NCBI GenBank assembly: GCA_029982205.1
Contig: JARRCM010000008.1
Span: 1-64,000 of the forward strand
Direction: 5' to 3'
Source: Thermosediminibacterales bacterium
GTDB lineage: Bacteria; Bacillota; Thermosediminibacteria; Koleobacterales; JARRCM01
DNA: 64,000 nucleotides
Positions 40,719 through 43,721 of this stretch are shown here, piece after piece; positions within the stretch are counted from its first letter, which is position 1, and each line of letters starts with the position of its first letter. The position numbers and the translations under genes are program-made. The notes below the pieces were generated by a model, which was given only the letters and a program-made list of their open reading frames with translations, was not told where the DNA came from and made no database searches.

Positions 40719-40732
40719 ATTAGTTAATACTG

Positions 40733-40761
40733 AAACACCGTCTTTTGGGCGGTGTTTTTTT
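40733..40761 (+). terminator. Terminator after yfiH
   Basis: AAACACCG ... CGGTGTTT stem and seven T. Confidence 0.9.
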
Positions 40762-40853
40762 AGTTCGTATAAATATAGATGTTATGGGACAGTATATTTA
40801 TCAAAGCTTGTTATTTATGTTATTAAAACATATTAAAGAAAGGGTGGGGAAAA

Positions 40854-41558
40854 GTGCCTTTATCTACAATAATCTTGCTTGTTGTTGCATTATTAATTTA
40901 TTTTGGAGCAGCTCACAGGGTTTTAGATAGACTTCGGCTAAATGATAAAACCGCTTTTTTGTTTATTGGTGCAATGATTTTAGGGAGTTTTCTGCCTAAT
41001 ATACCATTAGTTGGAGGACTTTCAATAAACATCGGTGGAGGGATAATACCTATTATTTTAGCTGTGTATTTAATATTAAAAGCTGAATCAGCCAAAGAAA
41101 AAACAAGGTCTATTGTTGCTTCACTAATAACGGCAGCAGCAGTCTATGGAGCAGCTAAATTATTACCAAGCGACCCCGGTAACATGATCATTTCACCAAC
41201 TTATTTATTTGCGATTTTAGCTGGAATTGTAGCTTATATTTTTGGTCGTTCAAGAAGGGGTGCATTTGTGGCAGGGATAATGGGGATTGTATTAAGTGAC
41301 ATAATATATGCGGTGGAAATAGCAATAGGAAATACCCCTGGTGCTACAACCATAGGTGGAGCGGGAATATTTGACTCTGTTGTGATTTCAGGATTGATAG
41401 CTGTGGGCCTTGCAGAGGTTATCGGAGAAGCACGGGAAAAGTTGCAGGGAGGAACTAAAAAAACAGAATACGCCAGTTTCTTTGCTGATAAAAGCACTGA
41501 ATCAAATGAAAAAGAAAAAGATGAAAAGGCAGGTGAATATTGCAATGAAAAAAAATAA
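40854..41558 (+). CDS. DUF1614 membrane protein
   Basis: A 234-aa polytopic membrane protein (about six spans) matching DUF1614: FIGAMILGSFLPNIPL, SINIGGGIIPIILAVYLI and IFDSVVISGLIAVGLAEVIGE. The C-terminal ~35 residues are hydrophilic Lys/Glu-rich. Start GTG 40854 with GGGTGGGG. It overlaps the SpoIIP-like gene by 14 bases, so the two should be made together. Function unknown; the context suggests a sporulation role. Confidence 0.85.
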   Translation: MPLSTIILLVVALLIYFGAAHRVLDRLRLNDKTAFLFIGAMILGSFLPNIPLVGGLSINIGGGIIPIILAVYLILKAESAKEKTRSIVASLITAAAVYGAAKLLPSDPGNMIISPTYLFAILAGIVAYIFGRSRRGAFVAGIMGIVLSDIIYAVEIAIGNTPGATTIGGAGIFDSVVISGLIAVGLAEVIGEAREKLQGGTKKTEYASFFADKSTESNEKEKDEKAGEYCNEKK

Positions 41559-42675
41559 AGCTAAAAAGGTATGTGTAATTATAGGATTGTCTTCTTTTTT
41601 AATACTTTATTTAATATCCTTTGCGTGTGCAATGGATGAAAGAGACGATGGATTTTATTTTACTGTAAAGGATATAAAAACTGGTGAAACTATTTTTGTT
41701 ACTTCAAGGTACGTAAATGAAGGCGACCAGTATCTCAATGAAGAAAACAAACTTTTTGAAGTGATTAAAGTAGAAAAAGATACGGCATATGCAAAATTTA
41801 TAAAAAAAGAAAATTTGATGGATTTATTAAAAACAACAGGTAGGATTGATGAGGCAGAGACATCGTCTGCACAAGGTCAGTTAACCAAGAGAATAGGAAT
41901 TTATTGTACTCACAGTGATGAGTCATATGCCCCAACGGATGGGAGGTCAAGCATTCCCGGGCATGGAGGAATTTTTGAAGTAGCAGAAACTCTTAAAAAA
42001 GCATTAGAGAAAAACGGTGTAGAAGTGTTTTTTTCAGATAGACCTCATGACCCCCATGATGGAACTGCATATCAACGTTCGAGAAGAACGGCAGCAGAAC
42101 TTCTGAAAAATAGACTTGATGCCCTGATTGATGTTCATAGGGATGCTGTACCAGCTCAGTATTATAAAGGTAATATTAAGGGAGAAGATATTGCAAAAAT
42201 ACGTCTGGTAGTAGGACGGCAAAACCCAAACAGGGCGGCAAATGACAATTTTGCAAAACAGCTAAAAGCTATTTCTGATAAGATATATCCAGGTCTTGTT
42301 AAAGGTATTTTTTATGCTAAAGGTGACTATAATCAAGATTTAGCCCCCAGAACAATTTTGATTGAAGCCGGTTCTAACACGAACAGTCGTCAAGACGCAG
42401 AAGAAGGGGCTGCCTTCTTTGCCGATGTTGTAACAAGAACCCTTTACGGAGCGGATAACCGAAAGGATATAGGTCCCGGAGGGATGGCTGCTCCTATTAG
42501 AGGTGAAACAGCCTCTATTGGAAAAACATTGTTGTGGATTATTGCTCTTGCAGTAGTTGGCATAGGAGGATATGTCTTAATTTCGGGAGGAAGTTATAAA
42601 GAAATTTCCAGTAAGATAAAGAAATTTGCTAATGAAGAGTTGGCGAACTTTTTAGGAAGGAAACGAAAGAAATAA
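41545..42675 (+). CDS. spoIIP: SpoIIP-type stage II sporulation protein (peptidoglycan amidase/endopeptidase)
   Basis: A 376-aa membrane-anchored hydrolase of the SpoIID-P-M engulfment machine. N-terminal segment (~8-28), then a ~100-residue linker, and an amidase domain with YCTHSDESYAPTDG (SpoIIP HTH-xE-x-Y site), LDALIDVHRDAVP, and TILIEAGSNTNSRQDAEEG. A second membrane segment near the C-terminus (~332-350, LLWIIALAVVGIGGYVLI). ATG 41545, in frame with an ORF that opens earlier at 41410. Most genomes place spoIIP next to gpr; here it is with DUF1614 and DUF3189 genes, so it may be an extra copy. Confidence 0.88.
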   Translation: MKKNKAKKVCVIIGLSSFLILYLISFACAMDERDDGFYFTVKDIKTGETIFVTSRYVNEGDQYLNEENKLFEVIKVEKDTAYAKFIKKENLMDLLKTTGRIDEAETSSAQGQLTKRIGIYCTHSDESYAPTDGRSSIPGHGGIFEVAETLKKALEKNGVEVFFSDRPHDPHDGTAYQRSRRTAAELLKNRLDALIDVHRDAVPAQYYKGNIKGEDIAKIRLVVGRQNPNRAANDNFAKQLKAISDKIYPGLVKGIFYAKGDYNQDLAPRTILIEAGSNTNSRQDAEEGAAFFADVVTRTLYGADNRKDIGPGGMAAPIRGETASIGKTLLWIIALAVVGIGGYVLISGGSYKEISSKIKKFANEELANFLGRKRKK

Positions 42676-42717
42676 ATATAGAGAAAGGGAAAGCTATTCT
42701 AACCGGGAGACTATGTT

Positions 42718-43188
42718 ATGGCTAAAATTATATATCATTGTTATGGAGGAACTCATTCTTCAATTGTAGCAGCTGCTATTCATTTAAACCTCCTTCCCGA
42801 AGACAGAATTCCTACTGGTGACGAACTTTTAAACCTTCCTTTTTTCGACAAGTTAAACAAAGAGGATCATGGTAAAATAATCTATATGGGAACAGATGAT
42901 TTTGGGAACAGGGTATATTCTCTGGGAAGGCGGAACGCAGGAAATATAATAATCAGAGCAGTTAAGGGTGTAATTAAACTTTTTGGATTTGACAGTAAAT
43001 CAATTTATTTTATCGACACGATGCCAACGGTAAATTTTTATATGTGTATAGGCGGGATATTATCTCGTAAATTTGGTTTATCATCAGTAGGTAGACCTAT
43101 ATTAATCTATGGAATTAAAAGAGCCTATTATAATATATTAAAACTTGTTAAAACAAATAGATTTTTAAGTGAAACGAGTGGTGACTAG
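42718..43188 (+). CDS. DUF3189 family protein, first copy
   Basis: A 156-aa protein. The DUF3189 start KIIYHCYGGTHSSIVAAAIHL, LLPEDRIPTGDELLNLPFFDK and a final SVGRPILIYGIKRAYY are seen. No membrane segment. It is a paralogue of the next gene. Conserved His/Cys residues in YHCYGxxHS suggest a metal or redox site, but the activity is unknown. ATG 42718, with no strong RBS (AACCGGGAGAC). Confidence 0.82.
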   Translation: MAKIIYHCYGGTHSSIVAAAIHLNLLPEDRIPTGDELLNLPFFDKLNKEDHGKIIYMGTDDFGNRVYSLGRRNAGNIIIRAVKGVIKLFGFDSKSIYFIDTMPTVNFYMCIGGILSRKFGLSSVGRPILIYGIKRAYYNILKLVKTNRFLSETSGD

Positions 43189-43190
43189 AT

Positions 43191-43655
43191 TTGAAAGTGT
43201 TTTATCATTGTTATGGGAGCGCCCATTCTTCTGTTGTAGCTGCTTCAATCCATTTAGGGCTTCTTCCATCTGACCGCATTCCAACTGCTGAAGAGTTTGT
43301 GAAATTACCCCTTTATGATAAAACAGATTCTTATAAGATAGGTTATCCTTTTTATATTGGAACTGATAACAAGGGTATAGACGTATTTGTTATTGGGATG
43401 CTCAATCAGGAAAAAATCGTGGTAAATGCTTTAAACAGTATTTTAACTGAATATGGATTAGACCCGAAATTATGTTTAATGGTAGAAACTTTGAAATTAG
43501 TAAACATTACTACAAGAGTTGGAGGTTTTCTATCACGAAGATTAAAACTGGTTTCTGTAGGCCGGCCTTTAACGATTTATGGAATACAAAAAAACTATAA
43601 AAAATTTATATATTTAGTTGAAAAAGTTAAAGCAAAGTTGGATAATATTCTTTGA
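43191..43655 (+). CDS. DUF3189 family protein, second copy
   Basis: A 154-aa paralogue of the previous protein (YHCYGSAHSSVVAASIHLGL, LLPSDRIPTAEEFVKLPLYDK, VSVGRPLTIYGIQKNYK). It starts at TTG 43191, two bases after the first copy's stop. The two copies differ mainly in the middle, which suggests different partners or a heterodimer. Terminated by a hairpin at once. Confidence 0.82.
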   Translation: MKVFYHCYGSAHSSVVAASIHLGLLPSDRIPTAEEFVKLPLYDKTDSYKIGYPFYIGTDNKGIDVFVIGMLNQEKIVVNALNSILTEYGLDPKLCLMVETLKLVNITTRVGGFLSRRLKLVSVGRPLTIYGIQKNYKKFIYLVEKVKAKLDNIL

Positions 43656-43688
43656 ATGATGGTGGAGTTTCCCATCATTTTGTTTTAT
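43655..43688 (+). terminator. Terminator of the DUF1614-spoIIP-DUF3189 operon
   Basis: AATGATGG (43655-43662) with CCATCATT (43672-43679), T-rich tail. Confidence 0.8.
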
Positions 43689-43692
43689 ATCC

Positions 43693-43721
43693 TTGACTTA
43701 AAGGTCTATTTGAAGGATAAT
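43693..43721 (+). promoter_or_regulatory. Sigma-A promoter of the DUF512 gene
   Basis: TTGACT (43693-43698), 17-bp spacer, GATAAT (43716-43721). Confidence 0.6.

Follow-up and report, generated by a model that had tools for sequence, protein, structure and literature searches.

A conserved DUF1614–SpoIIP–DUF3189 gene module of spore-forming Bacillota as a candidate forespore-side envelope-remodelling unit

In the window, that is, the whole 64,000-nucleotide stretch of DNA that was analysed, a gene for a second SpoIIP lies between a gene for a polytopic DUF1614 membrane protein and two tandem DUF3189 genes, and the order of this module is conserved among Bacillota far beyond chance. We put the probability that the module is a forespore-side envelope-remodelling, peptidoglycan-hydrolase unit of endospore formation at about one half. 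Its forespore location, the physical complex, cytoplasmic regulation by DUF3189, the substrate and the engulfment role are parts of this reading that we infer. Open reading frames and Pfam matches agree with the four genes of the original prediction, on one strand and at the coordinates below, which also list the flanking signals:

40732..40758, + strand: rho-independent-type terminator 3' of pgeF, upstream border of the module (−15.7 kcal/mol, z −4.35)
40767..40796, + strand: SigF-like promoter, GTATA (40767-40771), 15 nt, GGACAGTATA (40787-40796), 11/12 consensus positions
40854..41558, + strand: DUF1614/YphA-like polytopic membrane protein, 234 aa (PF07758, PF24124, hydropathy, AF2)
41545..42675, + strand: second SpoIIP, of the module subfamily, 376 aa (PF07454, C-terminal helix, clade)
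42718..43188, + strand: DUF3189 copy 1, 156 aa, soluble, YHCYGGTHSS intact (PF11385, AF2)
43191..43655, + strand: DUF3189 copy 2, 154 aa, soluble, YHCYGSAHSS intact (PF11385, paralogue comparison)
~43654..43680, + strand: stem-loop (43658-43679 in the terminator scan) whose T run is weak, where the module transcript probably ends (−10.2 kcal/mol, z −2.2)

The SpoIIP ATG at 41545 lies inside DUF1614 (stop codon 41556-41558), and this 14-nt overlap makes translational coupling of the two genes plausible; the second DUF3189 gene starts 2 nt after the first. A single closing terminator had been proposed for the set. The downstream stem-loop is indeed in place, but it is modest and weaker than the one behind pgeF, and terminator-like sites in the region did not exceed chance in our scan (6 vs 3.8 ± 2.2 expected). 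A SigA-like site (43693-43721, 10/12 positions) lies 3' of the stem-loop and 5' of DUF512, so that the DUF512-der operon could have its own promoter. With the good terminator on the 5' side and the weaker stem-loop plus SigA-like site on the 3' side, the module looks like its own transcription unit, and der and its neighbours are probably transcribed from a housekeeping promoter of their own. Among related loci, 8 of 70 regions upstream of DUF512 carry at least 11 of 12 SigA positions (0.1 expected). The upstream genes sigE, sigG, ylmC, nrdR and pgeF were rejected as module members, as none occurred in 80 related loci with flanks of up to 8 kb.

These 80 named Bacillota loci were kept from 344 relatives found by scanning GTDB genomes with a DUF3189 alignment. 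Carriers include Moorella, Thermincola, Syntrophomonas, Pelotomaculum, Symbiobacterium, Dethiobacter, Candidatus Frackibacter and many other Bacillota assemblies. DUF3189 is accompanied by DUF1614 in 74, SpoIIP in 68, DUF512 in 70 and Der in 70 of the 80 loci, always encoded on one strand in a fixed order. The downstream row reads DUF512-der-plsY-gpsA-spoIVA, with SpoIVA last wherever the flank is long enough. Most of 20 further loci, picked by HMM score and not by motif, have the same neighbourhood. The predicted four-gene set is thus a conserved module, but an incomplete one: the fuller operon, seen in 48 of the 80 loci, adds ~1.1 kb with YIEGIA (PF14045) and YIEGIA_cap (PF21835) between SpoIIP and DUF3189. 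Both are absent from the window, and the source assembly has no YIEGIA match. Three of six class relatives (L158, L160, L162) lack them too, while L157, L159 and L161 have them, so their loss is recurrent. Their presence varies even within one genus (L159/L160). In L060, L061 and L068, a double-sized DUF3189 gene comes straight after DUF1614 without an intervening SpoIIP, so the partner is not SpoIIP in every case.

The link to sporulation was examined in a phylum sample of 200 genomes, in which SpoIIP was found in 175, Spo0A in 174, SpoIIM in 171, DUF1614 in 145, DUF3189 in 127 and YIEGIA in 92. DUF3189 occurred in 127 of 175 SpoIIP-positive and 0 of 25 SpoIIP-negative genomes (Fisher p 5e-13), and in 124 of 174 genomes with Spo0A vs 3 of 26 without it (p 6.5e-9); both p values ignore shared ancestry. 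The expected restriction to spore formers therefore holds for DUF3189, absent from 25/25 SpoIIP-less genomes, but not for DUF1614 at large, since the Sulfolobus and Methanosarcina controls also match PF07758. The B. subtilis control has YIEGIA and only one SpoIIP, and gave no match to DUF3189 or PF07758. From the original proposal of a spore complex with a membrane partner and two cytoplasmic subunits, a spore-former-linked module of membrane and soluble proteins is retained, while its assembly into a complex and its action in engulfment stay conditional.

The SpoIIP of the window is a clear family member (PF07454, 206.5 bits vs a cut-off of 24.4, 7e-61; TIGR02867, 182.9 vs 123.15). The source assembly (1.9 Mb, 86% complete) contains two SpoIIP genes. 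A second spoIIP at gpr, with the window copy dispensable, had been named beforehand as evidence against the original prediction, and as to the first part a gpr-linked copy does exist, directly behind gpr on another contig (G000:C6), which makes the window copy, a gene that follows DUF1614 and forms no gpr-spoIIP pair, a paralogue. In 17 other two-SpoIIP genomes whose non-module copy was retrieved, gpr lay within the retrieved stretch in 9. The assembly also contains three SpoIID-domain genes (G000:C27, C40, C3; L154-L156). It gave no match to SpoIIM or Spo0A_C, yet it has SigE, SigG, SpoIVA, SpoIID-type and two SpoIIP genes; the two absences probably reflect incompleteness.

A tree of 55 SpoIIPs placed the 34 module copies together on one side of a branch with support 100/100. 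Hydropathy revealed a C-terminal membrane helix in 34/34 module SpoIIPs vs 0/21 others, and the tail beyond this helix is net positive in 27 of the 34. The window copy has an N-terminal membrane helix and a C-terminal one at residues 328-346, followed by a basic tail (+6). By hydropathy the protein is thus membrane-anchored at its two termini. Basic segments flanking membrane helices face the cytoplasm (positive-inside rule), and by this rule the basic tail is predicted to be cytoplasmic. An EFANFLG-like motif after the tail helix was present in 28/66 module SpoIIPs vs 0/21 others. H123, E126, H198 and E274 are invariant across the 55 SpoIIPs, and the window copy keeps every family invariant, including the active-site histidines and glutamate, so it is probably enzymatically active. 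A search for PDB sequence relatives returned none up to E = 1.

Compared with the gpr-linked SpoIIP of the SpoIID-SpoIIM-SpoIIP (DMP) machinery, the module copy shares the catalytic domain, with H123/E126/H198/E274 and their neighbours, and the N-terminal helix. It differs in its separate clade, extra C-terminal helix and basic tail, in its location away from gpr, and in its SigF-type promoter and DUF1614/DUF3189 partners. Considering that some loci keep DUF1614-DUF3189 without SpoIIP, and that B. subtilis manages with YIEGIA, a single SpoIIP and no DUF3189, the neighbourhood might be conserved without any shared complex, the second SpoIIP serving as a back-up DMP hydrolase and DUF3189 as a hitchhiking metabolic enzyme. 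We regard this as unlikely, given that DUF3189 never occurs in a SpoIIP-less genome of the sample and that the DUF1614 and SpoIIP frames overlap in nearly all loci. Moreover, a plain back-up copy would not be expected to form a separate clade with an additional anchor.

Expression of the module was approached through a search for sigma-factor consensus sites within 159 nt 5' of DUF1614 at 65 loci; start codons of the relatives were picked by length, and distances are therefore approximate. With the SigF criterion of GYATA, 15-17 nt, GGNNANAHTR and at least 11 of 12 positions, sites were found at 28/65 loci vs 1.5 expected from shuffles. On the reverse complement there was 1/65, and before other genes of the locus 0-1, whereas the upstream regions of SpoIVA, used as a control, had SigE sites instead. 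The window site lies 57 nt before the DUF1614 GTG and has p ~0.05 when taken alone; the box in the six class relatives is weak (p 0.03-0.29) and suggestive only. In B. subtilis, the promoter of spoIIP itself is SigE-dependent, i.e., active in the mother cell. The SigF consensus has been quoted as GTATA ... GGNAANAMTR (PMC3416734), and B. subtilis YphB (YIEGIA) is reported to be SigF-regulated and not essential for sporulation (PMC12017682). The SigF enrichment, together with the reported SigF regulation of YphB, points to expression of the module in the forespore, as judged from promoter-like sequence.

SigG-type sites 5' of DUF1614 gave a weaker signal (11/65 vs 3.5 expected). This signal, the adjoining plsY, gpsA and spoIVA genes, and the occurrence of YIEGIA proteins in dormant spore membranes (PMC8624511, PMC12017682) would fit a later action, in which the second SpoIIP trims the germ-cell wall or cortex during forespore membrane or cortex maturation or germination, and not during engulfment. 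However, SigF is the better match, the SigF and SigG consensus sequences overlap, and the loci read contained no gene for cortex or germination functions, which leaves a late role somewhat improbable.

The two DUF3189 proteins match PF11385 over their full length (202.9 and 188.6 bits, cut-off 23.2; 2.5e-60 and 6.6e-56), and both carry the motif YHCYGxxHSSxVAA, as had been claimed. Invariant residues of the family include C8, G10, H13, S15, H22, G52, G58, G112, G113, S116, R117 and G125, a conservation pattern of the kind expected from an enzyme. Of 62 tandem pairs, 60 retain the C/H/S signature in the first copy and 18 in the second. No pair lacks an intact copy altogether, and 9/9 single copies are intact; this is partly built in because the motif was used for locus retrieval, but such retrieval does not account for the asymmetry between first and second copies. 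Loci chosen by HMM, natural DUF3189 fusions included, gave the same picture of one conserved and one degenerate copy. The six class relatives show the reverse, with a decayed first copy (YSCYWGSYLA and similar) and an intact second one. The window, with two intact copies, is unusual. Two equal DUF3189 subunits, as first supposed, are therefore not typical of relatives; the pairs look like an enzyme with a usually inactivated copy. A single frame encodes two DUF3189 domains, or one with a long extension, in L040, L041, L044, L060, L061, L068, L078 and L110, and also in L134, L140, L145, L148 and L150; in the latter five, which were inspected in detail, the signature is better kept in the N-terminal domain and the C-terminal one is degenerate.

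An AlphaFold model of DUF3189 copy 1 (pLDDT 88.5, pTM 0.85) had no match at E <= 0.001 in PDB and viral fold libraries, and the second copy had no PDB sequence relatives up to E = 1. The C-x-G-x-x-H-S-S loop is placed between the first strand and helix, as is the loop of low-molecular-weight phosphatases, and the weak Foldseek list was enriched in these enzymes and in P-loop GTPases. DUF3189 could thus be a related phosphate-handling enzyme that signals from the forespore. We consider this quite improbable, since TM-scores were <=0.37, none of the hits passed E <= 0.001, and S stands where the C-x5-R loop has its arginine.

Under the favoured reading of a forespore-side hydrolase unit, SigF-type transcription would place the module in the forespore as engulfment starts. 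There the second SpoIIP would act as an amidase/endopeptidase tethered to the membrane by both termini; its catalytic domain would lie in the compartment of the septal or germ-cell-wall peptidoglycan, and its basic tail would return to the cytoplasm. DUF1614, in many relatives together with YIEGIA and its cap protein, would be the membrane partner of SpoIIP, and the DUF3189 pair, an intact enzyme-like and a usually degenerate subunit, would sit at the cytoplasmic face and control or power the membrane part. A more specific version is possible and is offered tentatively: DUF3189 might be a new cytoplasmic enzyme/pseudoenzyme pair that, through DUF1614/YIEGIA, steers the doubly anchored SpoIIP as a forespore counterpart of the mother-cell DMP machinery. 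The module may be accessory to sporulation, since B. subtilis lacks DUF3189 and its YphB is reported as not essential (PMC12017682).

Clostridia lack several of the known localisation partners of engulfment (PMC3533761). The conserved SigF-type operon, which includes a separate SpoIIP subfamily, suggests that in many anaerobic spore formers the septal or forespore wall is cut from the forespore as well. Current understanding of engulfment comes mainly from B. subtilis, in which SpoIID, SpoIIM and SpoIIP are mother-cell proteins. The module provides a named gene set for deletion work, and the broadly conserved, spore-restricted DUF3189 family, with its intact and decayed copies, leads to the testable prediction that an enzyme is paired with a pseudoenzyme.

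Part of this neighbourhood is already published. Makarova, Galperin and Koonin (2015) placed bacterial COG4089/pfam07758 (arCOG02159) genes near SpoIIP and yphB/YIEGIA, and a membrane-remodelling complex was proposed for the COG4089-SpoIIP-YIEGIA neighbourhood (PMC5898192). The DUF1614-SpoIIP linkage is shared with the window, which differs in lacking YIEGIA; the passage of that paper on this neighbourhood does not mention DUF3189, a SpoIIP subfamily, SigF or the YphA-like nature of the module DUF1614. Searches by name for DUF3189 and DUF1614, and for SeaA with 'spore envelope', found no paper in the mostly open-access literature searched. Apparently new are the clade of module SpoIIPs and its additional helix, the SigF signal, the confinement of DUF3189 to genomes with SpoIIP, and the enzyme/pseudoenzyme pattern.

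The B. subtilis yphA-yphB (YIEGIA)-der-gpsA-spoIVA row occupies the same chromosomal slot as the module. Its YphA model, PF24124, matches the window DUF1614 (41.1 bits, cut-off 28; 2e-10), whereas DUF3189 and a PF07758 match are missing on the B. subtilis side. The window DUF1614, with seven hydrophobic helices by hydropathy, matches PF07758 at 55.8 bits (cut-off 23.9, 7e-15) over profile positions 44-169 of 171, the N-terminal quarter being unmatched; its AF2 model (pLDDT 86.1, pTM 0.79) had no fold match in the PDB at E <= 0.001. Scores of ~40-75 bits are general among module-linked DUF1614 proteins, which by their profile matches form a weakly matching, YphA-like subfamily. The idea that DUF1614 substitutes for SpoIIM was discarded, as nearly all module-bearing genomes do carry SpoIIM. 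A full-length DUF1614 subfamily (~170-194 bits) occurs in ~30 genomes of the phylum sample, away from the SpoIIP-linked one.
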